Made by a program: the position numbers and the translations under genes. A stretch of 64,000 nucleotides of DNA. Origin: an uncultured Bacteroidales bacterium (GTDB lineage: Bacteria > Bacteroidota > Bacteroidia > Bacteroidales > Muribaculaceae). Location of the stretch: the NCBI GenBank assembly GCA_902787185.1, contig CADAFP010000002.1, positions 94,755 through 158,754 of the forward strand, given 5' to 3'. This document shows positions 1,039 to 62,185 of this stretch, piece after piece; the stretch's first letter is position 1, and each line of letters begins with the position of its first letter. The notes under the pieces are model-generated. The model did no database searches. It was not told where the DNA came from and worked only from the letters and a program-made list of their open reading frames with translations.

Positions 1039-4000
1039 TTAATTTGCTGGTATAGCGAGCTTTTTAGACTTGGTGGCTACCTGCACGCCATCGGTCGTGA
1101 CGGTTGCCCGATAGACGTAGATGCCACCAGACACACGACAGCCACCGCCATCCAACAGATTCCAAGTAACGGGCATGGTGTTACCTCCCGACTGTGTCGT
1201 CTGCCACACGGGTCGTCCCATCAGGTCATAGACCTCGATGGTGACGCTCACCTTGGCACCATAACAATTGTGGCGCACATAGAAGGTCGCCTCTGAACCA
1301 TTGAACTCGCTGTAGATATCGAGGTCATCGGATGTGGCGATTTCGGGCACGCCGCCAGTTGCCACGTTGAAGGTGATGGACTTCTCGCTCACGTTGTTAT
1401 ACACGTCCCATACGCGCAGGGTCAGGGTGTGAAGGCCTTGCGTCAGGTCACACAACTGGTAGCGGATGTTCCCGAGAGTTCCCTGCTCGGCGAACAGGGG
1501 TGTATAATAGCTCACCAGGTCATTACAGATGGTGGTGCTGTCGAGCGTAAGCGTCATGCAGTGCTCATTGCCTGCCGACGAGAAATCCACACCGCTCTCA
1601 TCGGCAACCGTAACCAGCAGCAGCGGCGAGTTGCTGACCTCACCGCCGTCAACAAAGGACTCGTCATTCAAGGCCATCGTGATGATGTCGGGACCGATGG
1701 TGTCGGTCACATGCTCCTCCTCATAGCCATAGATGAAGAAATTGCTGTTAGAGCCCTTTGCCTCCTGCTTGTTGCGGCTATCATAGGCATACAGGTTGAT
1801 TAATGCGGGACGGAAATTGTCGTACTCGTTGTTGACCTCGCTGGGAATGATGACTCGCACCGTGAACTCGCCGTCAACGACAGAATCCATGGTAATAGCG
1901 AGGCGGTCAGGATGATCATCGTAGGTCACCTGTTTACCCCAATAATTTCCATAGCCGTGGGTGGTCACCGACTGCTCGGGTCCATAGAGCGTCGAGATGA
2001 CGGCACCATTGAAGCCTGTTGCCACCTCACCGTCCAGCCCAATAATCTTGCCGCCGAACTCAACCGACTCACAGGCCTTGAACACAAACGGTTCACCGTC
2101 CTGAGCGTCAACAGCCTTGCCATTGATCGTCTCGATGCGGGCAGTCATGGGGGCGTAAGCCAACCGCATGGCGGGATCGCCGAATACCAGAAAGCGGAGT
2201 TTGTTGTCACTTGAAACAATCAAATCGTTCTTTGCCAACCTGATGATGTCGCCGATGCGCTTGGGGCGACCACTCTCGTCTCCTGCAAAGATGTAGTTCG
2301 CCACCGCTCTATTTAATATACCATTGTAATAAAGATAGGCAATCCTGGCGGGACAGATGACCGCTATGGCGCCACCATTGGCATTAAGGAAGATGCGTTC
2401 GCCGCTCGATACCGAATCGTTGTCAAAGCGGAAGAACTCGCATGTTGACGCATACAACACGGGCAAATGCCTGTAATCCAAGAGAGTCTCAACGTCGGAA
2501 CTTGTCAGCAGTCCCTCAGTGGTCCATTGCTGGGGGCTGGCATGGCCATTGTAGTTCCACCACAGGACACCCTCGTTGAGGGTGCTGTACATCTTGTCGC
2601 GGGCATCGGGATAGGTGCGTTGCCATTCCTCGTACACGGCATCAAAGGCATCAATGTACACGTAGTTGTAAACCATATTCTCGCCACCATGGGCACGGGC
2701 AGTTTCTATCATGTCATTGGACTGAATCATGAATTCGCCTTGGTTCTCGTCATCGGCGACAAACATGATACGGTTTTTCCAGTAGCCGTAATCGGGTTGG
2801 GTGATGTATTTCTCCAACTTGTCCACTGCGATGCGCGCCTCGTCCTCATTCCTGACAATCATGCGGCCCACAGCGATGCTCATCGTGTCTTTCGGGCTAA
2901 TGCCGCTGCCGTCATCCAGCATGGCGAAAAAGTCATCGGTGGTGATGGAATTGTCCTCGGTGGAACTGAATTCGGACTGCCATGTGAGCAGTTTGGGGTA
3001 ATTCAGCGAGTTGGCATCAGTGCCTATCAGGCGGTTGTCGTAGCTGCCGCCGCCAAACAGCAGCAGATACTGCAACCGGTGGCCGTCCTCGCTCTTGCCG
3101 CGGTCATAGAACATCTTGCACAGCCGGCGGTAGGCCATCGCGTCCTGGGTACCGCTCGAGAACTCGTTGAACACCATCTCGTGGTCAAGGACCAGCACGC
3201 GGAAGCCGTCATATTGCTCATGCAGCGCCGCAACACGTTGCGCCTGCTCCAGGTAGTCAGCAGGAGCGAGGATAATCATGTCGGGGGTCGCCTGGCCATG
3301 GATATTCTGATTGGCTACCTCTCTCACCAGCGTGGGATGAGCATAAGCAGCATCTGACGCGTCAAAGGCGATGAACTCGCGGCGCCCGCTCGCGGCAGGG
3401 CTGAACGTGGCGATGCCATCGGTCATGACGATGTTCTGTTGCACCAGGGCAAAAGGATAGGTCACGTCCCACACGCGGGTGGAACCAGTACAGCCCGCCA
3501 GCTGATAAGTGGTGTCGCGGCCCGCTTTGTCCAAACCGAAAGCCAGAGCACCCTCCTTCAACGTCAACTGGCGCTCATAGTTGACGGTAATGAAGTCCAG
3601 ACGGGCTTCTTCGACCGTGCCTGGGCAGCTATAATCTACCTGAAACGAGAGTTTATCGGTATTGTCAAGGGTGAAAGTTTTGAGCGATTTCGCTATATCG
3701 AAATGCACTGCGGAGTTGTACACGGGGCGAATGATGTCGTCACTAATCGACGGCATCGTTATGCCGTTGTAGCTGTAGGTCAAGGTACTGGCTGCACCTC
3801 TCGCCTTGGCGGCAAACACGGGATAAACCTTGATCGAGGAGCCGTTCACCAGACCATTCAGGTCAAAGTTGAACGCCTGGTGGCAGTTTTCGGCAAAACT
3901 CTCGCCCAAAAAGGTGCGCCCAGTCTTGCCCAAGTTGATGATTTCCTGCTCATGGTAGAGGCGCTCAATGAAGGTATTCTTCAAGGGGCCGCTTGCGCCA

Positions 4001-4470
4001 TTGTCTGCCTTGGCGATGTCGATATCGTGATATCGGGCATCGTTGGTGACCAGGTAGCATCCCGTGTTGGCATAGGGATGCTGCACCTGCACGTGGGCGA
4101 ATATATCGTTCAGATTTTTCCAGGTGGTGGGCCCCTGAGCGTAAAACAAAATGCGTTCGCCCGAGCGCACGACAGGCACCTGCGGCAGGTCGTCGGCATA
4201 GTTGTCGCCGAGCATCGTCTCGCTCAATGGCGCGCCACCGTAGCCGAAGATGTGAATCTGCGACAGGTCGCTTCCCAGACCCCATGTGAGGATATCATCG
4301 GCAGTAATCTGGTAGATGCCACTCTCGTTGACAGCAATCTTGACCCACTGGCCCTCAGCCAGTTTGCTGACAGGCGCATAATAATCCTTGTCCAATGCCT
4401 GCATGCTGATGTTGCAAATTGCCAACAGAGCAAGGCACACGACCAAATGTGCATGATATCTCTTCATCAT
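1039..4470 (-). CDS. porU: type IX secretion system sortase, PorU family (C25 peptidase), copy 1
   Basis: This 1143-residue protein has a signal peptide (residues 1-25), an N-terminal region with FGYGGAPLSE, and a gingipain-like C25 peptidase domain. The domain includes LLLFGGGSYDNR, NSITTDDFFAMLDDGSG and AVGRMIVRNEDEA. The catalytic His is in NYNGHASPQQW and the catalytic Cys in YASTCEFFRFD. A C-terminal Ig-like tail ends YVYRATVTTDGVQVATKSKK. Known role: PorU is an outer-membrane-surface sortase that removes the C-terminal signal of type IX cargo and links it to lipopolysaccharide. The gene is 125 bp downstream of a second copy on the same strand, so the two are probably cotranscribed. Which copy is the true sortase cannot be decided from sequence alone. 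Confidence 0.88.
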   Translation of the reverse strand: MMKRYHAHLVVCLALLAICNISMQALDKDYYAPVSKLAEGQWVKIAVNESGIYQITADDILTWGLGSDLSQIHIFGYGGAPLSETMLGDNYADDLPQVPVVRSGERILFYAQGPTTWKNLNDIFAHVQVQHPYANTGCYLVTNDARYHDIDIAKADNGASGPLKNTFIERLYHEQEIINLGKTGRTFLGESFAENCHQAFNFDLNGLVNGSSIKVYPVFAAKARGAASTLTYSYNGITMPSISDDIIRPVYNSAVHFDIAKSLKTFTLDNTDKLSFQVDYSCPGTVEEARLDFITVNYERQLTLKEGALAFGLDKAGRDTTYQLAGCTGSTRVWDVTYPFALVQQNIVMTDGIATFSPAASGRREFIAFDASDAAYAHPTLVREVANQNIHGQATPDMIILAPADYLEQAQRVAALHEQYDGFRVLVLDHEMVFNEFSSGTQDAMAYRRLCKMFYDRGKSEDGHRLQYLLLFGGGSYDNRLIGTDANSLNYPKLLTWQSEFSSTEDNSITTDDFFAMLDDGSGISPKDTMSIAVGRMIVRNEDEARIAVDKLEKYITQPDYGYWKNRIMFVADDENQGEFMIQSNDMIETARAHGGENMVYNYVYIDAFDAVYEEWQRTYPDARDKMYSTLNEGVLWWNYNGHASPQQWTTEGLLTSSDVETLLDYRHLPVLYASTCEFFRFDNDSVSSGERIFLNANGGAIAVICPARIAYLYYNGILNRAVANYIFAGDESGRPKRIGDIIRLAKNDLIVSSDNKLRFLVFGDPAMRLAYAPMTARIETINGKAVDAQDGEPFVFKACESVEFGGKIIGLDGEVATGFNGAVISTLYGPEQSVTTHGYGNYWGKQVTYDDHPDRLAITMDSVVDGEFTVRVIIPSEVNNEYDNFRPALINLYAYDSRNKQEAKGSNSNFFIYGYEEEHVTDTIGPDIITMALNDESFVDGGEVSNSPLLLVTVADESGVDFSSAGNEHCMTLTLDSTTICNDLVSYYTPLFAEQGTLGNIRYQLCDLTQGLHTLTLRVWDVYNNVSEKSITFNVATGGVPEIATSDDLDIYSEFNGSEATFYVRHNCYGAKVSVTIEVYDLMGRPVWQTTQSGGNTMPVTWNLLDGGGCRVSGGIYVYRATVTTDGVQVATKSKKLAIPAN

Positions 4471-4595: not shown

Positions 4596-7500
4596 TTAAC
4601 TTGCCGGTATAGCGAGCTTTTTAGACTTGGTGGCTGCTTGCACGCCATCGGTCGTGATGGTTGCACGATAGACGTAGATGCCGCGCGGCACACGGCGGCC
4701 ACCGATATCCACAAGATTCCACACGACGGGTGTCGAGGTGAACATGTCGCTGCGGCCCGACTGGGTGGTACGCCACACGGGACGTCCCATCAGGTCATAG
4801 ACCTCGATGGTCACGGTCACCACGGCGTCAGGACGATTGTGCTTCACATAGAAGGAGGTCTCCCCTGCCGAGCCATCGAGCAGGCTGTAGATGTCGGCAA
4901 TCTCGGGCGCGAGGCCATTGACGACGTTGAAGCTGATGGTCTTCTCGCTCACGTTGTTATACACGTCCCACACGCGCAGCCGCAGAGTGTGCATGCCCTG
5001 TGAGAGGTCGCTGAGCTGATAACTGATGCTGCCCCGTGTTCCCTCGTCGGCAAACAGCGGCGTGTAGTAGCTGGCCACATCGTTGTAGCTCGTGATGCCG
5101 TCAAGGGTGAGCGTCATGCTATGGCCGATACCTGCCTGAGAGAAGTTCACGCCGCTCTCGTCGCTCACTGTCGCCAGCAACAGGGGCGACTCGTTGATGT
5201 CACTGCCGTTGGCAAAGGTCTCGTTGTTCAAGCCCATGGTGATGATGGCCGGGCCGATGGTGTCGGTCACCAACTCGTCCTCGTAGCCGTAAATCAAGAA
5301 ATGGCTGTTAGAGCCCATGGCCTCGAGCGTGTCACGTCTGTCATAGGCATACAGGTTGATTTGCGCCGGACGATAGTTGTCATACTCATTGTTGACCTCG
5401 CTGGGGATAATGAGGCGCAAGGTGAACTGGCCGCCGATAACGGTATCCACGTTGATGGCGAGGCGGTTGGGACGGTCATCATAACTTACCTTGACACCAG
5501 AGCCGTTAGGATAGCCGTGAGTGGTCACCGACTGCTCGGGGCCGAATAAGGTCGAGACGATGGCTCCGTTGAAATCGGTAGCCACATTGCCGTCAAGACC
5601 GATAATCTTGCCGGTAAACTCAACCTGCTCGCGTGCCTTGAACACCGGGGTGACATTAGGCTTGATTGAATCGCCATTGATGGTCTCGATGCGCGCGGTC
5701 AGCGGCGCATAGGCCAAACGCATGGCAGGATCGCCAAACACAATGAAGCGCCGGTTATTGTCACTTGCGATATCCAACTGGTTCTTAGCCAATCTCATGA
5801 TGTCACCAATGCGGCGCTGCTTGCCGTCACTGTCACGCGAGAAGATATAGCGTGACACCGCTTTACTGAAGATGCCGTTCTCGTTGATGTAGGCAATGCG
5901 GGCGGGGCAAATCACAGCGATGGTGCCGCCATTGGGATTGAGGAACATGCGTTCGCCACTCGACACCGTCGAGTTGTCAAAACGGCAGAACTCGCAGGTG
6001 GCAGCGTAGAGCACTGGCAGGTGGCGGTAATAGAGCAGGTTCTCAACGTCGGAGCGCATCAACAGGCCCTCGCCAGTCCAGTTCTGAGTGCTGGCGTGAC
6101 CGATGTAGTTCCACCACAAGGTACCCTCGTTCAACGAGGTGAACATCTTGGTACGGGCATCAGGATAGTTGCGGGAGCCGCCACTGCTCACTGCATCAAA
6201 GGCGTCGATGAACACATAGTTGTACACCATGTTCTCACCGCCATTGGCTCGAGCCGAGTCAATCATTTCCAAGGACTGCGTCATGTGGTCACCATTGTTC
6301 TCATCGTCGGCGACGAACATGATCTGGTTTTTCCAGGAGCCATAAGAGGGCTTGGTGACATATTTCTCCAACTTATTGACCACAGCACGCGCTTCTTCGA
6401 CGCTCTTGACAATCATGCGTCCCACCGCGATGTTCATCTTGTCTCGGGTGGTAGCGCCGCTGCCATCGTCGAGCACGGCAAAGTAGTCGTCGGTAGTAAT
6501 GGAATTGTCCTCGTTGGAGCTGCCCTCGCTTTGCCAAGTGAGCAGACGGGGGAAATTATTGGCAGTGGAATTTTCACCAATTCGGCGGTTATTATAGCTG
6601 CCGCCGCCCATGAGCAGCAGATAGCCTAAACTGTGGCCATCCTCGCTCTTGCCGCGGTCATAGAACATCTTGCACAAGCGACGGTAGGCCATCGCATCCT
6701 GGGCACCACTGGAGAACTCGTTAAAGACCTTCTCGTGGTCCAGAACCAGCACACGGAAGTTGTCATACTTCTCATGCAGGGCAGCCACACGCCGTGCCTG
6801 ATCCATATAGGCATTGGGAGCCAAGATAATCATGTCGGGAGTGGCTTGGGCATGAATATTCTGGTTGGCGACATCGGCAATATATTCGGGATGTGAATAA
6901 GCGTTCGACGACTCATTGAAGGCGATGAACTCACGCCGTCCTCCCTGCGAGGGAGAGAACATCAACTTGCTGTCTTCCAGACGGGCGTTCATCTGAATCG
7001 GAGCAAACGGTAATGTCACGTCCCACACTCGGGTACTACCAGAGCATCCAGCCAAACAGTAAGTCGCTTCACTATCGGTGTCATCAAGGCAAAATGCGAG
7101 GCTATTGTCACGCATAGCCAGTTGGCGCTTGAAATTGAGTGTGATATAGTCCAGACGGGCCAGGTGTAACGTACCGTTGCAGGTATAGTTCACCTGCAAT
7201 GCCAGTTGATCAGTGCCTTTGAGCTTAAACTCCTTGACCGACCGGCTCAACATGTAATGATCGTGAGTCAGGCTGTTGACCTTCTGGATAATATCAGCGC
7301 CATCGCTGCGCAATGCCGAGTCATTGGCGGCATAATTCAACTGGCTGGATCCGCCTGTCGTCTGAGCGGCAAACACGGAATACATTTTTACCTTGGAGTC
7401 GCTGACAATACCATTTAAGTCAAAATTGAACGTCTGCTTGCGGTTAGAGGCGAAATTCTCGCCCAGAAATGCGCGCCCCGTCTCGCCAGGGTTTACGATT

Positions 7501-8048
7501 TCCTGCTCGTGGAAGAGACGCTCGATGTAGGTGGTCTTCAGCGGGCCAACAGGGGCATTGTTGGCTTTAGGGATTTCAATGTCGCTGAAACGGGCATCAT
7601 TGGTGACAAAGTAAAAGCCCGAGAGGGAATAAGGATGTTGCACCTGCAAGTGAGTCAAGGTGTCATTATCGCTCCTTATCAACTTCTTCCAAGTCAAAGG
7701 TCCTTGGGCATAAAACAGGAGACGGTCATCGCTGCGAACCACAGGCATCTGAGGCAGGTCATCGGCATAGTTGTCACCGAGCATTATCTCGCTCAATGGC
7801 GCGCCACCGTAGCCGAAGATGTGAATCTGCGACAAGTCGCTACCCAAGCCCCAACTGCGTGTGTCCTCGGCGGTAATCTGATAGATGCCGCTCTCCCTCA
7901 CTGCAATTTTCACCCACTTGCCGTCAGCGAGCTTGCTGACAGGAGCATAGTAGGTCTTGTCCAATGCATGGATACTGCCCGAGAAGAGCATCAGCACCGC
8001 CATGCACATGACCAAACGCACCAAGTTTCTTATCATCTGTTTTCCCAT
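4596..8048 (-). CDS. type IX secretion system sortase, PorU family, tandem copy 2
   Basis: This 1150-residue protein is collinear with the downstream copy over its whole length, from the signal peptide and YYAPVSKLADGKWVKIAV to the shared tail ATKSKKLAIPA. The C25 domain keeps LLLMGGGSYNNR, NSITTDDYFAVLDDGSG, the catalytic His in NYIGHASTQNW and the catalytic Cys in YAATCEFCRFD, so both copies look active. The start is ATG at 8048, with an in-frame alternative MIRNL four codons later. The phosphopantetheinyl transferase gene ends 86 bp upstream. The lineage normally has one porU, so the second copy may serve a subset of cargo or be redundant; this is inference. Confidence 0.85.
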   Translation of the reverse strand: MGKQMIRNLVRLVMCMAVLMLFSGSIHALDKTYYAPVSKLADGKWVKIAVRESGIYQITAEDTRSWGLGSDLSQIHIFGYGGAPLSEIMLGDNYADDLPQMPVVRSDDRLLFYAQGPLTWKKLIRSDNDTLTHLQVQHPYSLSGFYFVTNDARFSDIEIPKANNAPVGPLKTTYIERLFHEQEIVNPGETGRAFLGENFASNRKQTFNFDLNGIVSDSKVKMYSVFAAQTTGGSSQLNYAANDSALRSDGADIIQKVNSLTHDHYMLSRSVKEFKLKGTDQLALQVNYTCNGTLHLARLDYITLNFKRQLAMRDNSLAFCLDDTDSEATYCLAGCSGSTRVWDVTLPFAPIQMNARLEDSKLMFSPSQGGRREFIAFNESSNAYSHPEYIADVANQNIHAQATPDMIILAPNAYMDQARRVAALHEKYDNFRVLVLDHEKVFNEFSSGAQDAMAYRRLCKMFYDRGKSEDGHSLGYLLLMGGGSYNNRRIGENSTANNFPRLLTWQSEGSSNEDNSITTDDYFAVLDDGSGATTRDKMNIAVGRMIVKSVEEARAVVNKLEKYVTKPSYGSWKNQIMFVADDENNGDHMTQSLEMIDSARANGGENMVYNYVFIDAFDAVSSGGSRNYPDARTKMFTSLNEGTLWWNYIGHASTQNWTGEGLLMRSDVENLLYYRHLPVLYAATCEFCRFDNSTVSSGERMFLNPNGGTIAVICPARIAYINENGIFSKAVSRYIFSRDSDGKQRRIGDIMRLAKNQLDIASDNNRRFIVFGDPAMRLAYAPLTARIETINGDSIKPNVTPVFKAREQVEFTGKIIGLDGNVATDFNGAIVSTLFGPEQSVTTHGYPNGSGVKVSYDDRPNRLAINVDTVIGGQFTLRLIIPSEVNNEYDNYRPAQINLYAYDRRDTLEAMGSNSHFLIYGYEDELVTDTIGPAIITMGLNNETFANGSDINESPLLLATVSDESGVNFSQAGIGHSMTLTLDGITSYNDVASYYTPLFADEGTRGSISYQLSDLSQGMHTLRLRVWDVYNNVSEKTISFNVVNGLAPEIADIYSLLDGSAGETSFYVKHNRPDAVVTVTIEVYDLMGRPVWRTTQSGRSDMFTSTPVVWNLVDIGGRRVPRGIYVYRATITTDGVQAATKSKKLAIPAS

Positions 8049-8869: not shown

Positions 8870-11800
8870 TTATTGCGCCATAAAGTAGTAGTAACCCAAG
8901 ATGTCGTTGAACATGACGGTGTAGGTACCAAGGGCGACGGGGATGTTGGGACCGTTTTCAACAGCTAAACCGAAAGGAAATTCAGAACCACCCCAGTTCG
9001 CATACCAATTGCCGTCGGCAGCGAATTTGAGCTCTGTGGCCTCGGTAACGACGAAGTCCTTCACAATCCAATCATGATTCTCAGCTCTGGTGTTAACAGC
9101 TGTCATCAGGTTTGCGCCGGGATTCCAATACTGATACCCTCCTGGCATACCCATCGTGCTATAGGCGCTTGGGCTAATGTCCAGTTTCTCGATATTCACT
9201 TCATAAGTGCTCGTGTTGACCGTAATCTCGTAGTAGCCGGCATCGTTAACACGGATATTGCCACCCTCGCCATTATTGAGGGCTATCACACCGTCAACCA
9301 TACTGAGCTGCTCGCTCTCACCCGGAGTATGGATGATTTTGAACGTCCTGCGAGCTGCGAGATAGCCCACCCATTTCAAGATGTTGGCTGAGCCGGGCAT
9401 GCCATACATGGGAACCAACGAAACACCGACATCATCAGTGCTCATATTGTGCCAAGAGCCATCACCAAAACCGGAACCCATCAGGTACCACAGGTCGGGA
9501 AGAGTCGGTTCAACCGGTTTCTCGATAACCTCAAAATTAAAGGTGCGTTTCAGCATATCAAATGTCAACTTATATTTATCGGCAGAGGTGCTTGCAGGAA
9601 TGACAAATGAATAAGCGGCCACACTATTGCGGCCTTTTACAAAAGTGCCGCTCATCCCATTAGATGCTTCACTGTAATAGCCGATGAAGTCCGAGTTCCA
9701 GAACTCATCCCCATCAGCGTCCATGGTCTCCTGGGGATAAATCATGAAGATGTTGTCATTGTCAGTGGCGGGAATCGTCACAGTAAATACGGGATGATCG
9801 TAAACGTCGCCACCACCATTGTTGAGCTTATAGGTTGCGTCATTGGGGGTCCAATCGTTACTGGAGCCGATGTAGTAGTAGGCACTTGAAATACTCGGAA
9901 CATAGGGAATAACGGGAACATACGGTTCGGGGTCGGCATCAAAATCAACAAAACTATAGGTACCCATGATGTCATTGAACATCACGGTGTACCTGCCAGC
10001 GGGAACCTTGATGTTGCCCGTAAACGGGGTGCCCAAGCCGTAGGGGAAGTCGGTGGCATTGCCCCAAATCATGTCCCACTCGCCGTTGGCGGTGAATAAC
10101 ACCTCGGCATTCTGGTCAAAGGTCACCTCGGCAAACCAGTCGTGGTTGATCAGGTTCATGTCGGCCATCGTGCTGACAGCCATCATCGCGCTGCTCTCGG
10201 GCATCCAATCCTGATAGTCGCCAGGCATGGAGATCATCTCATAAAGGGTAGGCTCCTGCTCGTATTTCTCGATGGTGATCTCATTGTATGCATTGATCAG
10301 GATGGTGTAATAGCCAGCCTCGTTGATGCCGATGTTGTGGTTGTCACCATCCTCATCGGACAGGAACCATCCGGGACTTACCACATTGGTATAGTTGAGC
10401 TGCTCGCTCCAGTCCCCAGGGATGTGGACGAACTTGAACTGGCCACCCTCGGGGAAATAGCCAACGTACATGGAGCAGCCAGGCATTAACGTGCCGTCGG
10501 TATCATAAGCGGGATAGGTCGGGATGAGGCCTGAACCGATATCGTAGACGCCATAGTTGCTCCAAGGACTGCTGCCGATACAGTCACCCACGAGATACCA
10601 CAAATTGACAGGTTGACCAGCAGTTCCCACATAGTATGGTTTAATCTCCAGACTTACCACATTGGAATAATATTGATCACTTGCCACACATCGCACATAT
10701 ACAGTCTGCCTATCAGGCAGGTTGTCCTCGGACCAATGACATATCTGGGCAAGCGCCCAATTCAGTTCTACTACCGTCATCTCGCTGCTTAATGACCGTA
10801 TGTGAGTAGGTGTTAAAACTGCATAGTCGGCCTGCAATTGGCCGGTCTTGTCGGCGGCAGCCTCATCAATCGAAACATTCCACTCATTGGTGGGGGATAC
10901 CTCTAAACGATAGTACAAAGAAGAGGGCAAGTAGTAGTCAGGCTCGGTCCACTCAAATGGGATATACATAAAGTCATCGATGTCAACCAACGTGTGTACT
11001 GGGGTGCTCAAGTCGAACGTTATGGTCTGAGCCGCCTCTTCTTCATAACCAGGATTCTGAACCAGATTGGGGTTAGCTACCATAGCGGCAGCAGGGATGG
11101 CGAACACGTTGCGGAAGGCAGGGAAGTTGCGTCCGCCCAAGATGCCGCCCTTCCAGCTCCACAAGTAATCAGTCGTTCCGCCAAAGCAGTTGAAACGAAT
11201 CAAATCCATGCGGCGGCGCCCCTCGAAGTAGAACTCACGGCTCCACTCGTCCATAATCTGATTGAGGGTGTAAGACGTACGCTGTTCTGCGTGAGCACGG
11301 GCACGGATAGCGTTAAGGGCATCGACGGCCTGGGCAGGGGCAACTCCTCCTGCCTGGCAGGTCAGCGCCTCGGCGTAGGTCAGATAGGCCTCGGCCGAAC
11401 GCATCAGGAAGAAATCCGCATCGGAAAAAGTTGGGTGACTGGCGACGCTGCCGTTGGTCTTGAAATTGTTGAACTTGGCGACAGCATAACCGTTAAAGAA
11501 ATCACTGGGATTTGTATTCTCCAGAGTGCGGCCACTACCGGTGTTGAACAACGCACGGTCGTCCCCGCCCAATTTTGCCACCATATAACCTGGTTGCCCA
11601 ACTGGGGCATCGTCATTGGGGAAAAACTGGCGAACCAGCTGAGGACGGGCACGGTTACCAGCCCACTGTCCGTTGGTTCCCAAACCGTTAAGTTCAGAAT
11701 CATTATACGGATTCTCGTGCATATTCCAATCAAAAGTCGATGCTATCAAGAATGTGGTTCCGCCCCATCCGTAAATACTATTGTCCATGAAAATTTGGGC

Positions 11801-13249
11801 ACCATCACGGGGAAGCGGAAAAACGGCCTCAGCAGCAGCTGCGGTATTGCCATTGTCACCCATAAACAGCATCTGGTATGGCGTGTACTCACGATAAACA
11901 CCGTCAATGCCGTTGCCGGCATAACCCTGAGTGTGCAGTTTGTGAGGACCGTCGATGACCATCTTGGCATAGCGGGCGGCATCGGCCCAGCGGGCCACAC
12001 CGGTATATACCTGTGCATTCAGGTAAAGTCGTGCCAGCAACAGGTTAGCGGCATCACGGTCAACGCGGCCATAATCCACTTCACCCTCGTGGCGGGCCAC
12101 AGGGTCACACAATCTCTCGCGCAGGCTGAGTAATTCCTGCTCCAGCCACTGGAATAGCTCGACACGCGATGACTGCGGGATATTGTCAACACCAGTTGTG
12201 GTGACCAGCGGCACATTGCCCCAGTAGTCAAGCAGATAGAAATAGTGCAGTGCCCTCAGGAAACGCACTTCGGCCGTCTTGGTAGCATCAATGTCACTAA
12301 ACTGGTCCAGGTATTCATTGCAGACACCAATGCAGGCATACAATGAAAAGTAAGAAGCCTCCAACATCGGATGAGTGGCATCATAATGATTGAAATTGAA
12401 TGCTGGGATGCCTGTATCACCCCAAGCGCAGATAGCCTCGTCGGTGGTCAGCTCGTTAGAATTCCACAATTGACGCACATAATCTGTATATCCGTCATCC
12501 ATGCCGTTAAGATGGACACCCCCATTGACATAGTCATAGCACTTCTTGAACAATTCATTGGCCTGAGCGGTATCAGAGTCTAAGATGGGCTCAAACTCAA
12601 AGGTGCGGTTTTTCATATCAAAGGAGAGGCGATAGCTGACGGTAGTGCTGGGAGGTAGCTTGAACGAGAAAGCCACCTGATTATTGGGACCTTCCACAAA
12701 GGTTCCACTCATCCCGTTGGCGCCATCCTGGGAGTAACCGATGAAATCCGCAGTCCAGAAGTCAGCCTCAGCAACATCCATGGTTTCCTGAGGATAAATC
12801 TTGAACCAGTTGTAGCCACTGGTGGCAGGAATCTCCACCGTGAACACGGGGTTGGCATACACATTGCCACCGCCATTGTCGAGCTTATAAGTCGCATCAT
12901 AGGGGGTCCAGTTGTTACTGGTGCCAATGTAGTAGTAGGCCGAGGAGATTGCATGTATCTCCTGCTGGCCGCTCATGATAGCATCAATAAGTGAAACCAC
13001 ATCGGCAACCGACACGACTCCATCAAAATCGACATCGGCAGCAGCAGGGATATCAGATGAGCCGGATAAAATGTAATCGACGATAGCGACAACATCTGCA
13101 ATCGATATTTTTCCATCATTGTCGACGTCTCCTGTCATAGTACTCTTGACAGTCGATTCAAGAGGCAACTCGGTTGGCTGTTCCAACCCTTGGGCAAAGC
13201 ACGGTAATAACATGCTTAAGCAAAGCAGTAAGATAATATGATTTTTCAT
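8870..13249 (-). CDS. giant SusD-SusE/F fusion with N-terminal dockerin-like repeats
   Basis: This 1459-residue secreted protein has an unusual domain order. A signal peptide covers residues 1-20; the LLPC segment could be a weak lipobox. Two F-hand dockerin-like repeats follow at about 40-93 (DVDNDGKISIAD and DVDFDGVVSVAD). A SusE/F-like module spans about 101-227 (SSAYYYIGTSNNWTP). A complete SusD/RagB-like domain comes next, with FLRALHYFYLLDYWGNVPLV and ending near NVFAIPAAAM. Several more SusE/F-like modules then run to the end (LWYLVGDC, SSAYYYIGSSNDWTP, LWYLMGSGFG, TYTVMFNDILGYY). SusD and SusE/F normally are separate lipoproteins that bind glycans beside a SusC transporter, but no susC is in the window. 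Start chosen at ATG 13249 rather than TTG 13273; a -7 box (TATTTTTG, 13316-13309) fits. Confidence 0.8.
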   Translation of the reverse strand: MKNHIILLLCLSMLLPCFAQGLEQPTELPLESTVKSTMTGDVDNDGKISIADVVAIVDYILSGSSDIPAAADVDFDGVVSVADVVSLIDAIMSGQQEIHAISSAYYYIGTSNNWTPYDATYKLDNGGGNVYANPVFTVEIPATSGYNWFKIYPQETMDVAEADFWTADFIGYSQDGANGMSGTFVEGPNNQVAFSFKLPPSTTVSYRLSFDMKNRTFEFEPILDSDTAQANELFKKCYDYVNGGVHLNGMDDGYTDYVRQLWNSNELTTDEAICAWGDTGIPAFNFNHYDATHPMLEASYFSLYACIGVCNEYLDQFSDIDATKTAEVRFLRALHYFYLLDYWGNVPLVTTTGVDNIPQSSRVELFQWLEQELLSLRERLCDPVARHEGEVDYGRVDRDAANLLLARLYLNAQVYTGVARWADAARYAKMVIDGPHKLHTQGYAGNGIDGVYREYTPYQMLFMGDNGNTAAAAEAVFPLPRDGAQIFMDNSIYGWGGTTFLIASTFDWNMHENPYNDSELNGLGTNGQWAGNRARPQLVRQFFPNDDAPVGQPGYMVAKLGGDDRALFNTGSGRTLENTNPSDFFNGYAVAKFNNFKTNGSVASHPTFSDADFFLMRSAEAYLTYAEALTCQAGGVAPAQAVDALNAIRARAHAEQRTSYTLNQIMDEWSREFYFEGRRRMDLIRFNCFGGTTDYLWSWKGGILGGRNFPAFRNVFAIPAAAMVANPNLVQNPGYEEEAAQTITFDLSTPVHTLVDIDDFMYIPFEWTEPDYYLPSSLYYRLEVSPTNEWNVSIDEAAADKTGQLQADYAVLTPTHIRSLSSEMTVVELNWALAQICHWSEDNLPDRQTVYVRCVASDQYYSNVVSLEIKPYYVGTAGQPVNLWYLVGDCIGSSPWSNYGVYDIGSGLIPTYPAYDTDGTLMPGCSMYVGYFPEGGQFKFVHIPGDWSEQLNYTNVVSPGWFLSDEDGDNHNIGINEAGYYTILINAYNEITIEKYEQEPTLYEMISMPGDYQDWMPESSAMMAVSTMADMNLINHDWFAEVTFDQNAEVLFTANGEWDMIWGNATDFPYGLGTPFTGNIKVPAGRYTVMFNDIMGTYSFVDFDADPEPYVPVIPYVPSISSAYYYIGSSNDWTPNDATYKLNNGGGDVYDHPVFTVTIPATDNDNIFMIYPQETMDADGDEFWNSDFIGYYSEASNGMSGTFVKGRNSVAAYSFVIPASTSADKYKLTFDMLKRTFNFEVIEKPVEPTLPDLWYLMGSGFGDGSWHNMSTDDVGVSLVPMYGMPGSANILKWVGYLAARRTFKIIHTPGESEQLSMVDGVIALNNGEGGNIRVNDAGYYEITVNTSTYEVNIEKLDISPSAYSTMGMPGGYQYWNPGANLMTAVNTRAENHDWIVKDFVVTEATELKFAADGNWYANWGGSEFPFGLAVENGPNIPVALGTYTVMFNDILGYYYFMAQ

Positions 13250-13374
13250 TGTTTTTTGGTTTTTTAGGTTCAAATTAATATAGTTTCATTTTGCTTGATT
13301 ATCCATCGCAAAAATAATGCTTTTTCGCCAAATAATAACAACAAACGCGTCAAAATCTATAGATATTGACACAA

Positions 13375-18702: not shown

Positions 18703-21102
18703 ATGTATAGAATCCGTATCCTTTTCATCTTGACGTGTTTAGTGACTGCATGTGCCGCTATTGCCAACCCTGTTACTGAACACCAGGCGCGTGCAATCGC
18801 CACAAGTTTCCTGGCAAAACAGTTCCCCTCCCCCAAGTTGACTTCAGGTGCTCCAGCCACGGCTGTAACCCCTGTAACCCGACAAGCGGCGTACTATATC
18901 TTCAACGCCGCAGCCAATAGGGGCTTTGTGATTGTTGCAGGCGATGACCGTCTCCCCGCTGTGCTGGGCTACAGCGACAGCGGCAGCTATGATGCCGGTG
19001 ACGTGCCGCCTGCTTTGCAGGAATGGCTGGACGGTTATGCCGCCCAAGTTGAGGCCATCGCCGCCGGCGCGCAACCTGAGCCGCGCACCGCTTCACGTGC
19101 CCCCATCGCGCCGATGTTGCCCGTCCGGTGGGGCCAGGGTATGCCCTACAGCGTGCTGTTGCCCCACATCGACGGCAGCAGCTACGCGCACGCCTATGTG
19201 GGATGTGTGGCCGTGGCGATGGCCCAGATCATGGCCTATTGGCAATATCCCCAACGCCCCACGACGACGATTCCTGGCTACACCTCCAACAGCGGCAAGA
19301 CCTATCAGGTCGTCATGCCGTCGTTGACGCCCATCGACTTTGATTGGGAGGGCATGCACGACACCTATTACACCAACGACAGCACCAGCGACGCCTGCCT
19401 GGCGGTCGCCAACCTGATGCTGTACAGCACCACGTCGCTTCAGTCCAATTTCGGCCTGTCATCGACCGGCGGCTATACCCGCAACATTCCCGGCAAGTTA
19501 ATCACCTACTTCGGCTACAAAAACTCGGCCCACTACATCTATCGCGAGAACTTCAGCACCCAGTCATGGGAAGACACCATCTACAGCGAGTTGGCGGCAG
19601 GGCGTCCCGTGGCCTACGGCGGCAACAAGCAGTCGGCGGGGCACGCCTTTGTGTGCGACGGCTATGACGGCGAGGGACGTTTCCACATCAACTGGGGATG
19701 GGCCGGCAAGAGCAACGGCTACTTTCTCCTAAACCTGCTCAATCCCAGCGAAGAGGGCATCGGCAGCGCGGCGGGAGCCTACGGCTACGTCAAGGGACAG
19801 GGTGCAGCCATCGGCCTGGAACCGAACTATGACGGCATCGAGGGCACAGCGGCATTCACCTTCCAGGACCTCACCATCAACCGCAGCAACACGACACGCA
19901 GCTCCGCGTCCAGCAACTTCTCGGTAACGGTGTCGGGCAAATTTGTCAACAACACCAACGTCGCGTCGCAGTTCCGTCAGGGATGGGGATTGTACAGCCT
20001 TGACGGTGAACTGGTTGACGTGCTGTTCATGCGCTATTCCTCCAGCGCCGTGGCTAACGGCCAATACATTTCGGTAAGCAGCAGGACGCTGGACTTCGGC
20101 GGTGGCATCACCAGCGGCACCTACCGCATTCTGCCCATCTACTCCATCTATCCCGCCGAGGACTATAGGCCCTGCATCGGTTCAGAAGTGAACTACATCG
20201 AGGTGACCTTCAACGGCAGCTATTCCTGTTCCATCAAGGGCTACGGCACTGCTGGCACGACAACCAATTACACCGTGAACAGTTGCACCCTCTCGGGCAC
20301 TCAGAACCACGGCAAACCCTTGACCATCACGCTGAACGTCACCAACACTGGCGTCACGACCAACAATCTGGTCTATATGTTTGTGTATGGGGAACTTACC
20401 GCCATGGCACTTGCCGACATTGCCCTCGGAGAGACGGGCAACCTCGTGTTTGGCTATACGCCCGATGCGGCGGGGACCAAGGCACTGACGTTCTCGCTCA
20501 ACGAGAGCGGCACCCCGACCTTGTACAGCAAAAACATCACCATCAAGACCATGCCCACGGCTAACCTTGACGTGTCATACCGCATCTCCAACATCACCGA
20601 CGAGAGTGGGCGCGTCATCACCGCCGACCGCTACAGCATCATCGCCGATATCACCAACAACGGCACGACGGCCTACAACGAGGACTTCTCGGTGCGCCTG
20701 TACCGCATCAACAACAACGAGACCAATGTAGGCACCGAACTGCTCAGCCAGACACAACCGCTCTACCTCCCTGCCGGCGAGTCCACGAGCCTACAATTCG
20801 ACTTTGACCATGACCTCATCGACGGGTGGAAATACTTCTGCTACCTCTACTACTACAGCGATGGCGAGACCGTGGGAAAAGGCACCAAGTGGTATTACCT
20901 CAACATGACGGATGACACTTTCATCTTGGGCGATGTGGACCGTGACGGCAGTGTGGGCATCAACGACGTGACGGCACTCATTGACTATATCCTTAGCCAT
21001 CAGGGCGACATCGACCTCATGGCAGCGGATGTGACTCAAGACGGTCAAATCGACATTGCCGACGTGACGACCATCATCGACATGATTCTCGCTAAGGAGT
21101 AA
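18703..21102 (+). CDS. secreted streptopain-like (C10) cysteine protease with dockerin-like C-terminus
   Basis: This 799-residue protein has a signal peptide (1-22) and a SpeB/Spi-type prodomain (about 24-135) with EHQARAIATSFLAKQF and AYYIFNAAANRGFVIVAGDD. The catalytic domain has its Cys in YVGCVAVAMAQIMAYW and its His in GHAFVCDGYDG, followed by FHINWGWAGKSNGYF. A long Ig-like region (about 380-745) comes next. Two F-hand repeats close the protein (DVDRDGSVGIND and DVTQDGQIDIAD, about 746-798). Known family role: secreted broad-range proteolysis after self-cleavage of the prodomain. A -7 box TACCTTTG (18667-18674) supports the ATG at 18703. No type IX tail is visible, so the repeats may be the surface-attachment device. 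Confidence 0.9.
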   Translation: MYRIRILFILTCLVTACAAIANPVTEHQARAIATSFLAKQFPSPKLTSGAPATAVTPVTRQAAYYIFNAAANRGFVIVAGDDRLPAVLGYSDSGSYDAGDVPPALQEWLDGYAAQVEAIAAGAQPEPRTASRAPIAPMLPVRWGQGMPYSVLLPHIDGSSYAHAYVGCVAVAMAQIMAYWQYPQRPTTTIPGYTSNSGKTYQVVMPSLTPIDFDWEGMHDTYYTNDSTSDACLAVANLMLYSTTSLQSNFGLSSTGGYTRNIPGKLITYFGYKNSAHYIYRENFSTQSWEDTIYSELAAGRPVAYGGNKQSAGHAFVCDGYDGEGRFHINWGWAGKSNGYFLLNLLNPSEEGIGSAAGAYGYVKGQGAAIGLEPNYDGIEGTAAFTFQDLTINRSNTTRSSASSNFSVTVSGKFVNNTNVASQFRQGWGLYSLDGELVDVLFMRYSSSAVANGQYISVSSRTLDFGGGITSGTYRILPIYSIYPAEDYRPCIGSEVNYIEVTFNGSYSCSIKGYGTAGTTTNYTVNSCTLSGTQNHGKPLTITLNVTNTGVTTNNLVYMFVYGELTAMALADIALGETGNLVFGYTPDAAGTKALTFSLNESGTPTLYSKNITIKTMPTANLDVSYRISNITDESGRVITADRYSIIADITNNGTTAYNEDFSVRLYRINNNETNVGTELLSQTQPLYLPAGESTSLQFDFDHDLIDGWKYFCYLYYYSDGETVGKGTKWYYLNMTDDTFILGDVDRDGSVGINDVTALIDYILSHQGDIDLMAADVTQDGQIDIADVTTIIDMILAKE

Positions 21103-21193: not shown

Positions 21194-24100
21194 CTATCTG
21201 ACAATCTTGACGGTAGATGTGCTGCCGTCGCTATAGCGCGTCACGACGATATTGATGCCCTCAAACGGCCTGTCGCTTTGCATACCCATCACATTGTAGT
21301 AACGCACGTCAACAACTTGACGCAGAGCCACAAAGTTCTGAACCGAAGTGGGCGACGGGCTGTTGGGCAAGTCAAACGGATAAACCATGAAGCTGCCGTC
21401 GGGGGCGGTGGGCTTGGGCGACCTCATGCCGGAGGTGCCGCTGGGGGCACCCGGGTCGAAGGCCGAGCGGGCGATACCGGCATGGAAGGTGTAGGCGGTG
21501 TCCTGCAACTCGCTGGGTTTGCCGTAAATCTTGCCCGAGCTGGTGAGCCTGTTGAAGGTCCAATCCACATAGAAGCTGCCCGACAGGTCAAAGCCGTTGA
21601 TTCTGGTTCCCTGCTGGTTGTAAACCGTGAAGACGTCTTGGCCATTATATCCTTGTCCCATCCAGACACCCATCACATGGGCCACCTCCTGGATTTTGGG
21701 ATTCATGAAGAACAACAGGGTGTCTTGTACCACCGAGCCCGTTCCGGGATGCGCTCCGGGGTTGCCGTCGAGGCTGAGGTTAGCCTGGTTGAAGTTGAGC
21801 GACATGTAGTGGTTGTACAGGTAGTCGTTGTGCTTGGTCTCGTTGTTATCCTCACAGTAGCCATAGTAGCCCGTGGCATCGCCATTGAGCTCTGGCATCT
21901 GGCTCAACACGATGGTGTAGTTCTCGCCATCACTGTAGTGACCCTTAACGGTGCCGGCACTGAGTTTGGTATTCACCAGGGCATCGACGTCGACATCGGG
22001 GAAGTTGGAGAAGTCGAGTACCACCCAGTTGTTCTGCAGCCACTCAGAGGTCTGGAACCCGGCATACCTCACATAGTCGCCCTGGGTTTCAGCATTGATG
22101 TAGGTGGGATTGATTGAGAGGGCCTCGTCCCTTGCCCACAGCAGTTTGTACTGCTTCTGCTTCTCGGTGTTGTAATAATCGACAGCCCAGGCGCCAATCA
22201 GTTCATCCGAGACGATGACGTCGTTGTCGGGATCGATCTCGTCCTCAATATAGGCAAGCGGAGTCTCAATGACAGTATAGACGGCGGTGTTGCTCACCTT
22301 GATGTAGCCGATGTAGGACTCGCCGTACACGTCATGCCTGATGGGCTGCTCCAGATAGAAGGAGTCGCCCTGGGTGGGCGTGCCATTGTTCACTATATAA
22401 ACAAATGTGGCATCGTCCTCGTTCACGTTGTGGTAGTCGGCGATGGCATGGACGGTGCTCTCCAGGTCGCTGGTGAGCGTCACTTGGGTGCCCACAGGAT
22501 ACTCGCCGCTGGGCGGGTTAATCGTCAGTGACAGAGGGGTTTCCACGATGCGCATTTGCGTCATGGCCTTGTTCACATAGATGCGATAGACGCCAGCGGG
22601 AATCTTAAAGGCGTTGTTGGGATTGTTGCTGGACAGGGGTATCTCAGTCATGCCGTCATGCACGCCATAGTTGTTGGACGTGGCGGCGAGACGCTGGCCG
22701 TTGAGCAAGCCCCAGTCGCCGGCACCAGCCTGAGCCGTTTGCCAGGTGATGCCCGTGTCGATGCGTTTCGTGAGGCTGAAGTAGCCGTAGTCCTGATCGG
22801 CACCAGCATCATCATTGCCGCCCTTGAAGTAAACGTCAAGGTAATACTCCTCGTTGACAGCATCATAATTGAACTTGGGACCTGAAGCAACCCAGCTGGT
22901 GCGGCCCATGGCGGTACCCAGCAGGTACAGGTCGGGCTCGGTCTCGTAGAACTCGGCGCGGATTTTCACATGGGCACCAGGCATCACGAAGTGGTAGTTG
23001 TTGCCGTCGGCAGCGACCTCATCGGGGGTGAGCACCGTAGTATCATTGGTCGTAAGGTTAATCACGACAACCCGCTTGATGCGATAGCCCCAGTTGGTGC
23101 CGGACTTGAACTCGACCGTCTCACCCTCTTGCGACTGGTCTTCCCAAACACCGTCGGTGATGTTAATATAGCCGCCGTTATTGGGGTCACACTCCTTATA
23201 GACATTATAGGATTGGGCCAGCTTATACAGCCACACGCGGGTGTCACTGTCGGCCGTGCTCATCACCTTAAACGAGTGGTCGGTGTCGTCATACCTGATG
23301 GTGTGGCTCGAGTTGCTGTAATTGTCACCCATGAACCAGCACAGGAAATTGTAGTTGGTGCCGAAGTACATGAGGCCTCGGGAATAGTCATTGACACTGG
23401 TCGTGACGAGCAAGTTGCCCTGGTCGGTGCCTGTGCCGATACGGATATAACCGTTGTTCAAGGTGCTGAGTCGAGCCACACGGCGGGTAACCTGGTTACC
23501 ACTGCTGGTGTAGGTCGTGTCCTTGGCGCCCAGCATCCTGACCATGCAGGCATTGCCATCGACTTTGACCTTGGTCTTGGCAGCGTTCATCCACTCGACG
23601 ATATTGGCCGAGGGGAATGTGGCGTCGTCGGTCTTCTTGAAGCTCATGACCTTGTCATGATTCTGGCTCACAATGATATAGGTATCGCCATTAACCACCT
23701 GGCTGCGCTGCGTCACCAGCTCAAAGATGTCGCCATCCAGCTTGTCATAGGTGATCTCTACCGACCCGAAGCGCACGGGCTTGCCGTCGGCAGTGGTGAA
23801 CATGAAGGCCGCTGTCTGACCTTCCCACACGCCGTCATAGCCGTTGTTGGTGACATAATAGTTGCCCAATTGGCCCGGATAGGTGAAGTTGCTCACCAGC
23901 GAAATGGTCGTGGGACCCCAGTAGAAGCAGTCCAGATTGTCCTGGGTGGTGTTATCCACGCAGTGGAACACGACCTTCTTGATGATGTAGTTGGCCGAAC
24001 GCACCTCAAACGTCTTGGCTCGACGCTCGATAAGGTAGTTGTCGTTGTCAAGGCCATCGGTAAACGTCATCATGATACCGTCCTTGACGCAATAATAGAC

Positions 24101-24214
24101 GCCCGTACCATCTTGATACAGGCCCTCGCCACGATGGATAGTCACCGTGTACTCACTCGCCCAAATCGGAACCGACAGGACAAGCGCCATTAACATGAGT
24201 AAAACCTTCTTCAT
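21194..24214 (-). CDS. large secreted protein of unknown function with type IX-like C-terminal tail
   Basis: This 1006-residue protein has a clear signal peptide (1-19). The middle includes SusF-like beta segments (DLYLLGTAMGRTSWVASGPKF, then EEYYLDVYFKG and IPAGVYRIYVN). A region near 590-960 contains LTINPPSGEYPVGTQVTL, a bacterial Ig-like strand pattern. The last 40 residues contain YYNVMGMQSDRPFEGINIVV and end TSTVKIVR. The same tail ends the 1163-residue protein at 30117-33608 and looks like a type A C-terminal sorting signal. A -7 box TATATTTG (24324-24317 minus) gives a leader of roughly 95 nt. Molecular function not recognised; probably a surface or secreted binding protein exported by the type IX system. 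Confidence 0.72.
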   Translation of the reverse strand: MKKVLLMLMALVLSVPIWASEYTVTIHRGEGLYQDGTGVYYCVKDGIMMTFTDGLDNDNYLIERRAKTFEVRSANYIIKKVVFHCVDNTTQDNLDCFYWGPTTISLVSNFTYPGQLGNYYVTNNGYDGVWEGQTAAFMFTTADGKPVRFGSVEITYDKLDGDIFELVTQRSQVVNGDTYIIVSQNHDKVMSFKKTDDATFPSANIVEWMNAAKTKVKVDGNACMVRMLGAKDTTYTSSGNQVTRRVARLSTLNNGYIRIGTGTDQGNLLVTTSVNDYSRGLMYFGTNYNFLCWFMGDNYSNSSHTIRYDDTDHSFKVMSTADSDTRVWLYKLAQSYNVYKECDPNNGGYINITDGVWEDQSQEGETVEFKSGTNWGYRIKRVVVINLTTNDTTVLTPDEVAADGNNYHFVMPGAHVKIRAEFYETEPDLYLLGTAMGRTSWVASGPKFNYDAVNEEYYLDVYFKGGNDDAGADQDYGYFSLTKRIDTGITWQTAQAGAGDWGLLNGQRLAATSNNYGVHDGMTEIPLSSNNPNNAFKIPAGVYRIYVNKAMTQMRIVETPLSLTINPPSGEYPVGTQVTLTSDLESTVHAIADYHNVNEDDATFVYIVNNGTPTQGDSFYLEQPIRHDVYGESYIGYIKVSNTAVYTVIETPLAYIEDEIDPDNDVIVSDELIGAWAVDYYNTEKQKQYKLLWARDEALSINPTYINAETQGDYVRYAGFQTSEWLQNNWVVLDFSNFPDVDVDALVNTKLSAGTVKGHYSDGENYTIVLSQMPELNGDATGYYGYCEDNNETKHNDYLYNHYMSLNFNQANLSLDGNPGAHPGTGSVVQDTLLFFMNPKIQEVAHVMGVWMGQGYNGQDVFTVYNQQGTRINGFDLSGSFYVDWTFNRLTSSGKIYGKPSELQDTAYTFHAGIARSAFDPGAPSGTSGMRSPKPTAPDGSFMVYPFDLPNSPSPTSVQNFVALRQVVDVRYYNVMGMQSDRPFEGINIVVTRYSDGSTSTVKIVR

Positions 24215-27637: not shown

Positions 27638-27897
27638 CAGCAACTATAGACGTAATTTTGAGTATCGTAAAGTGACTTTGAGCAAAGAGTGAAGGACTGA
27701 CATTGATGATTGCTGTATCCCCTATGAGATATAAAAGCTTACATATCAATCCATTACCATCATAAAGCTTGCACATGACTAAAGTCGGCGAGCCGTACTC
27801 TTTAGCCGAGCGAAAGCTACCCAAAACCACTTTATTGATGCGCGATTACTCATGTTTGATGAATTTAAACCTATTTATTTTTAATTTTATCATAATT

Positions 27898-62011: not shown

Positions 62012-62185
62012 AATACAAGCAATTAAAAACGCAAATAATGAATTTTGCTGCAAATATAGTAAAAAAAATTGTTCTAGCATTACAAGAGAGGATATGCCAT
62101 CAAAATTCTGGCACATCCTCTTCTCATATCCTGGCTGGCACATCAAGCCTAATCGGCTCCTATCTGTGCTATTTTAATAAAGGAA

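Follow-up and report, generated by a model that had tools for sequence, protein, structure and literature searches.

SusD is normally kept on the outer membrane beside SusC by a lipid anchor, and its presence commonly serves to mark loci of SusC-dependent import. What, then, might be the role of a SusD domain that has no lipid anchor, stands apart from SusC and is preceded by a dockerin? The question is raised by one gene in a stretch of 64,000 nucleotides (the window) from an uncultured Bacteroidales bacterium of the Muribaculaceae (assembly GCA_902787185.1, contig CADAFP010000002.1, positions 94,755 to 158,754). The gene, at window positions 8870-13249 on the minus strand, joins a dockerin, SusD and SusE/SusF-type modules in one chain, and fusions of dockerin and SusD recur in the genus. 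We put at about even the chance that its product is a SusC-independent, dockerin-attached alpha-glucan binder that works like Sas20 of Ruminococcus bromii.

Architecture of the fusion protein

The original prediction for this locus described a single giant secreted open reading frame (ORF) with two F-hand repeats, a complete SusD domain and SusE/F-like modules in one chain, and in these respects it was right. The frame is intact and encodes 1459 residues counted from the ATG at 13249, or 1467 from an alternative TTG start at 13273, upstream of the ATG. The domains follow one another in the order signal peptide, dockerin, a module designated M0, SusD, SusE-like unit and SusF-like unit:

13190..13249, minus strand: signal peptide, residues 1-20, Sec-type by inspection, no lipobox by pattern
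12977..13132, minus strand: type I dockerin with two F-hand repeats, residues 40-91 (Pfam PF00404, 1.4e-7; two calcium-loop motifs)
12596..12949, minus strand: M0, N-terminal starch-binding-type module, residues 101-218, a copy of F1
11036..12595, minus strand: complete SusD domain, residues 219-738 (Pfam SusD_RagB and SusD-like_3; match to Bacteroides thetaiotaomicron SusD, BtSusD)
9929..11035, minus strand: SusE-like unit, residues 739-1107, with an Ig/FN3-like part and the X25-type modules E2 and E3
8873..9928, minus strand: SusF-like unit, residues 1108-1459, modules F1, F2 and F3
8870..8872, minus strand: stop codon

Four Pfam families match above their gathering scores: Dockerin_1 at the dockerin, where both calcium loops fit the canonical motif, SusD-like_3 at residues 242-410 (1e-8), SusD_RagB at residues 574-735 (1.1e-24), and SusF_SusE (PF16411) in two stretches (2.2e-12). 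The only near approach to a lipobox is a Cys at residue 17 preceded by Leu-Leu-Pro, which falls outside the pattern. Por_Secre_tail, the C-terminal signal of the type IX secretion system (T9SS), has no Pfam match in the fusion, in a genome whose own tails score poorly, with two of eight matches above the cut-off.

Six modules of the fusion (M0, E2, E3, F1, F2 and F3) are predicted starch-binding-type sandwiches. The repeat that had been noticed in the first and a late module is real: M0 and F1 (residues 1115-1236) are identical at 75 of 116 aligned residues. Other related pairs are E2/F2 (43 of 102 residues) and E3/F3 (44 of 97). The accompanying proposal, by which a chain of SusE/F modules received SusD as an insert, is rejected in favor of a joining in operon order, because the D-E-F order of the fusion is that of the sus operon, M0 duplicates the first SusF-type module, and a separate SusC-D-E-F-amylase operon persists on the contig. 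This complete operon lies at contig positions 71105-83454, about 20 kb from the fusion. Its SusD, SusE and SusF have lipoprotein-like signals by eye, that of SusD also by pattern, and the same region encodes an X25 protein, a GH13 protein with a C-terminal dockerin and a CBM26 match under the cut-off, and a dockerin-GH53 protein. The original prediction mentioned neither this operon nor the missing lipid anchor nor the expansion of dockerins across the genus.

Recurrence of the fusion and separation from SusC

Related genomes, in which the original prediction would look for the same domain order, contain dockerin-SusD fusions in at least 13 of 101 cases within the genus. A SusD search of these 101 genomes gave matches in 95, and in 13 the SusD frame is longer than 700 residues; the count is of such frames, with a 656-residue frame in genome G116 falling outside it and locus L208, a duplicate of L062, excluded. 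All 13 begin, as judged by eye, with a signal-peptide-like sequence and match a dockerin ahead of SusD, and in ten a SusE/F module is detectable by BLAST behind SusD (not in L199, L201 and L204). The fusions occupy several different sites, some of which have neighbors in common.

No SusC-like ORF was found in the examined flanks of any of the 13 fusions (168 bases to more than 50 kb, the contigs of L199 and L201 being short), whereas all 80 separate SusD genes compared have SusC immediately upstream. The separation from SusC that had been claimed for one gene is thus seen across the group. A lipobox is found by pattern in none of the 13 fusions and in 71 of the 80 separate SusD proteins, the remaining nine having one by eye. 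Within the window, BLAST with the genome's own starch SusC as query found no match at E 1e-3, in keeping with the claimed absence of SusC there. The genome as a whole has 11 SusD_RagB places, four of them on this contig including the fusion, and 13 SusC places above the cut-off, three on this contig. One flank of the fusion holds a phosphopantetheinyl transferase-like gene and two C25 peptidase genes, and the other holds four genes that by inspection resemble an ABC-2/HlyD/TolC-type export set; the neighborhood is no polysaccharide locus.

A scan of species genomes, from which the best 80 of 286 stretches were kept, yielded one full-length orthologue (L062, in genome RUG10614), the other 79 loci having a separate SusD ORF. 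The orthologue has 1456 residues as called and is 78% identical in SusD. Its site is syntenic, with the same export genes adjoining and, on the other side, a gene aligning to the window's C25 peptidase at 64%. RUG10614 carries an ordinary sus operon as well (L112). The ratio of nonsynonymous to synonymous substitution rates (dN/dS) between the two fusion genes is 0.208 overall, and by part 0.09 in M0, 0.21 in SusD, 0.18 in SusE and 0.18 in SusF.

An assembly or frame artefact, by which separate genes had been wrongly joined, is suggested by the odd architecture alone. As a sign of such an error, the original prediction had named two or more separate genes at the locus in closely related genomes, but the one relative found with the site, RUG10614, again has a single ORF, in another assembly, with the same architecture, near-equal length and the same export neighbors. 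Purifying selection in the M0, SusD, SusE and SusF parts and the further fusions in 11 more genomes also speak against an artefact. We reject this explanation on orthology, synteny and dN/dS, and regard it as practically discounted.

An order-wide search of 295 genomes found a SusD match at 1e-40 in 91, including the source genome. Among the matches listed (up to five scored candidates per genome), no frame outside the source genome is longer than 591 residues, a sampling that may miss a fusion elsewhere in the order. Four long SusD frames from genomes beyond the genus (G051, G055, G056 and G058) were considered and rejected as fusions of this type, as each begins with what looks by eye like a lipobox signal, lies close behind a SusC-like ORF and has no dockerin match at 1e-3. 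The fusion group is so far confined to one genus.

Two long SusD frames, of 741 and 727 residues, occur behind SusC in other families of the order (L212 2971-5196, minus strand; L211 1016-3199, plus strand). Their SusD matches are interrupted by some 200 additional residues, which in L212 show a weak match to a SusF module (7.6e-4), as though SusD had a starch-binding module within it. Partial SusD/SusE-like matches were also seen in three unannotated human faecal records labelled Bacteriophage sp. (MT836010.1, MT835954.1 and MT835882.1), the best being 41.5% over residues 219-867; these are possibly mislabelled bacterial DNA.

The SusD site and the starch-binding-type modules

The NCBIfam model nearest to the fusion is that of starch SusD, NF033071 (5e-107; 358 bits, under the strict cut-off of 725), and the nearest solved chain is BtSusD, with matches at 3.3e-67 and 2.6e-69. 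Alignment to chain 3ck7 places Trp, Tyr and Trp at a constant offset of 24, judged by eye, on positions that we take to be starch-binding in the BtSusD structure. Like BtSusD (PDB 3ck7; PF07980/PF14322; NF033071), the fusion has the complete domain, and W98, R81, W320 and D73 are identical, while Y296 is replaced by Trp and N101 by Asp. Both replacements are usual in the separate SusD proteins, with Trp at position 296 in 68 of 79 and Asp at position 101 in all 79. Across the fusions, W98, R81 and W320 are retained in 12 of 13, position 296 is Trp or Tyr in all 13, and D73 is retained in 10. Unlike BtSusD, the fusion has neither a lipobox nor an adjoining SusC gene, and the same chain carries a dockerin and M0 before SusD and SusE/F units after it.

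With SusE and SusF (PF16411) the fusion shares tandem X25-type modules of the same folds in the same D-E-F order. It differs from them in that its units are joined to SusD, have no lipobox, and include one SusF-type module repeated before SusD; the N-terminal part of the separate SusF has no match in its SusF-like unit. Identity to the genome's own separate proteins is 55% for the SusE part and, for F2-F3, 68% to SusF. AlphaFold models of the SusE-like and SusF-like parts reached mean confidence (predicted local distance difference test, pLDDT) of 87.4 and 86.1. For both models, the best Foldseek matches by E-value are solved SusF and SusE structures (PDB 4fem, 4fch and 4fe9). An X25 chain of Sca5 ranks between SusF and SusE by E-value for the SusF part, and by Z it comes first for the SusE part and second for the SusF part. 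Compared over whole chains, the models score low against SusE, SusF and the Sca5 X25 chain (TM-score by model length 0.19-0.30), because the modules are arranged differently, and the likeness therefore holds module by module (Foldseek, VIA-align; families outside the VIA-align rows are neither demonstrated nor excluded by it). From these modelled SusE/F folds and the retained SusD residues, we predict with high confidence that the fusion binds alpha-glucan, which lends support to the glycan binding first proposed for it.

Outside the fusions, M0 is nearest to modules of long SusF proteins at L106 (76%) and L093 (75%). Several other proteins combine related parts. Two, of 443 and 432 residues, match the SusF part and M0 and are encoded beside a SusC-like gene (L206 3380-4711 and L207 3799-5097, both minus strand), the one in L207 being preceded by a stretch that matches just part of the dockerin. 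A third, beside another dockerin-SusD fusion (L205 5157-7040, plus strand), has a dockerin, a sulfatase-modifying-factor-like domain and a SusF_SusE module in one protein.

Descent of the parts

In a SusD tree from which one distant SusD and the 11 remaining fusions were omitted, the fusion SusD groups with those of L093, L095 and L136 with support 99, and its grouping with SusD proteins of the genome's own type is rejected moderately by the approximately unbiased (AU) test (p 0.025). For the SusE and SusF2-3 parts the closest relatives are in the operon of the own type, and their grouping with L093/L095 is rejected (p 3e-5 and 5e-10, respectively). These p values flatter the reading, because the groups were chosen once the trees were in view. 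The pieces have different nearest relatives, so a simple duplication of the genome's own operon is unsupported; by its sequence relationships, the fusion looks to have been assembled from more than one operon lineage, or to have recombined since. For the fusions as a group, the tree needs at least two changes, yet a single clade is not rejected (AU p 0.47) and several branches are long, so that single and repeated origin would both be compatible with it.

Dockerins in the genus

The source genome has at least 148 dockerins (among the 150 of 304 candidates that were scored). All of 28 genomes of the genus, the source genome and 27 relatives, have dockerins, from at least 29 to at least 112 per genome (at most 109 or so candidates being scored in each), compared with 0-1 in 17 of 18 genomes of other families and 38 in the remaining one. 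Carriers include amylase, GH53, C10 peptidase and leucine-rich repeat (LRR)/DUF285 proteins, among others. The position of the dockerin could be placed in 15 of 30 loci, the other 15 having failed a strict motif and been dropped: it is C-terminal in eight, N-terminal in three, internal in three and cut in one. The window itself has three further carriers, a Peptidase C10 with a Spi inhibitor propeptide and a C-terminal dockerin (18703-21102, plus strand) and two LRR/DUF285 proteins, each with a C-terminal dockerin (59210-62143 and 62505-63656, both minus strand).

Three proteins combine a cohesin match with one or two dockerins (L192 1552-4116 and L194 3433-6000, plus strand; L190 3062-5086, minus strand), and the one in L192 also has LRR. 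In these proteins the cohesin stretch may support the dockerin instead of acting as a receptor.

Proposed function and alternatives

The Sas20-like binder that we propose would have arisen as a gene built from copies of susD, susE and susF joined as in the operon, to which a further SusF-type module and a dockerin were added in front, the dockerin substituting for the lipid anchor. Exported by Sec, the protein would bind starch or maltodextrin multivalently through the SusD site and six sandwich modules. Its dockerin would plug it, presumably in a calcium-dependent manner, into a partner that probably lies at the cell surface or beyond it. There it would be close to enzymes that also carry dockerins, such as the GH13-dockerin amylase of the same genome, with which it may cooperate, starch being its likely ligand; import would be left to the separate SusCDEF operon. 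We have fair confidence in its independence of SusC, which we infer to extend to the living cell, and moderate confidence in the presumed docking and extracellular location. The surface location is one we infer, because a lipobox and a recognised T9SS tail are both missing from the fusion.

Several observations weigh against this proposal. Cohesin matches are few and weak: at E 1e-3 they occur in 13 of 23 genomes of the genus (and in three of 14 outside it) and are absent from the other ten. When seven of those ten were searched at E 1, two had sub-cut-off matches and five had none, among them G016, itself a fusion carrier. The source genome has six weak cohesin places at 1e-3, of which an ORF scan shows the cohesin in four (one under the cut-off) and not in two; each of the four ORFs has one cohesin and also a dockerin match. 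The dockerin is the least constrained part of the fusion between the orthologues (dN/dS 0.83 on 64 codons), the fusion at L204 is without the starch-site residues, and two of the five Foldseek matches of the SusE part at E 1e-3 are eukaryotic Ig/FN3 proteins, consistent with its Ig/FN3-like part. The operon's SusC could partner the fusion in trans, and by default its location could be the periplasm, as no T9SS tail is recognised.

On the first of these last two points, the fusion would be an alternative SusDEF lid acting in trans on the starch SusC, whose gene is some 29 kb distant, with the fused modules replacing separate SusE and SusF. That SusC is in an operon on the same contig, and 130 of 135 strongly conserved SusD positions are retained in the window fusion, L062 or both, so the interface could survive. 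But that SusC still has its own separate SusD, SusE and SusF, a dockerin and a module of about 120 residues stand ahead of SusD in the fusion, and the uniform lack of a lipobox and of a flanking SusC-like gene in the 13 fusions is hard to square with a lid. In addition, among nine other fusions (L204 and L205 left out), seven or more depart from the separate SusD proteins at each of 19 of the 135 positions. We hold a lid in trans to be distinctly improbable. A periplasmic maltodextrin holder, exported by its Sec signal alone and buffering imported starch fragments with the dockerin as a calcium-stabilised spacer, accounts for the missing lipobox and Por_Secre_tail match. The same genome, however, puts dockerins on C10 peptidase and LRR/DUF285 proteins, families that are usually extracellular, and six starch-binding-type modules would seem to suit a polymer better than an imported oligosaccharide; we consider such a holder improbable, if less so than the lid.

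A different view of the dockerin would make it a tag for sorting or retention that is peculiar to the lineage, recognised by a receptor that is no relative of cohesin and carried by more than 100 exported proteins of the genus. The abundance of dockerins in all 28 genomes, their mixed positions and the genomes without a cohesin match all fit this view, as do Bacteroidetes metagenome-assembled genomes (MAGs) with a few dockerins and no recognisable cohesin, in passages of a survey that terms the dockerin role unclear (PMC7260996). Yet the calcium loops of the window dockerin are both canonical, divergent cohesins may evade Pfam, and over half of the genomes searched in the genus do have cohesin matches. 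One relative, G011, encodes an 1132-residue protein in which two cohesin stretches are combined with a dockerin at the C-terminus, so a scaffoldin-like protein is conceivable, and cohesins are reported from certain Bacteroidetes in part of another survey (PMC6071333). A tag of this kind is unlikely, though a more serious contender than the periplasmic holder.

Relation to known systems

The nearest parallel to the proposed binder is Sas20/Sca5 of the R. bromii amylosome (PDB 7rpy). As described in parts of PMC9112005, Sas20 has starch-binding domains with X25 modules and a dockerin; the fusion, to judge by its sequence a secreted starch binder, likewise has X25-type modules and a dockerin, and so the trait of amylosome and cellulosome components by which a dockerin is joined to a starch-binding-type module is present in it. 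Unlike Sas20, which has a known cohesin partner and for which those parts name no SusD, the fusion contains SusD. Dockerins are also present in rumen Bacteroidetes covered by metagenome surveys. Their role is termed not yet defined, with glycoside hydrolase modules, DUFs and carbohydrate-binding modules as carriers, in passages of PMC7480376, and they are called abundant in three Bacteroidetes bins, with 11 in each of the two shown, in passages of PMC6071333. Unlike the few dockerins per MAG in the parts of these surveys (PMC7260996, PMC7480376, PMC6071333) that report them, here there are dozens to more than 100 per genome, one of them on a SusDEF fusion. No dockerin-SusD or SusDEF fusion was found described in the open-licence literature (titles, starts of abstracts and some passages), which is no proof of absence.

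Searches for polysaccharide utilization loci (PULs) use SusD, as in passages of PMC7480376. A form of SusD that recurs without a lipid anchor or an adjoining SusC suggests reuse as a plain glycan-binding domain, and a SusD match therefore need not mark an importer. The fusion suggests that starch may be captured without an outer-membrane importer. It also offers a handle on what Bacteroidetes dockerins do without recognisable cohesins, a question posed in part of PMC7260996, and could serve as bait, since a ligand is predicted for most of its length and the dockerin at one end is unexplained. More broadly, the genus may run a dockerin assembly system of more than 100 tagged exported proteins whose receptor is not a recognisable cohesin, onto which SusD would have moved from TonB import as a free starch-capturing arm, an amylosome-like system arisen in the PUL world; we entertain this tentatively, at somewhat below an even chance.

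Other genes of the window

The two C25 peptidases beside the fusion are encoded in tandem (1039-4467 and 4599-8048, both minus strand) and are PorU-like in appearance. Three proteins of 777-1163 residues, encoded at 21197-24214 (minus strand), 27769-30099 (plus strand) and 30117-33605 (plus strand), have no Pfam match at 0.001.

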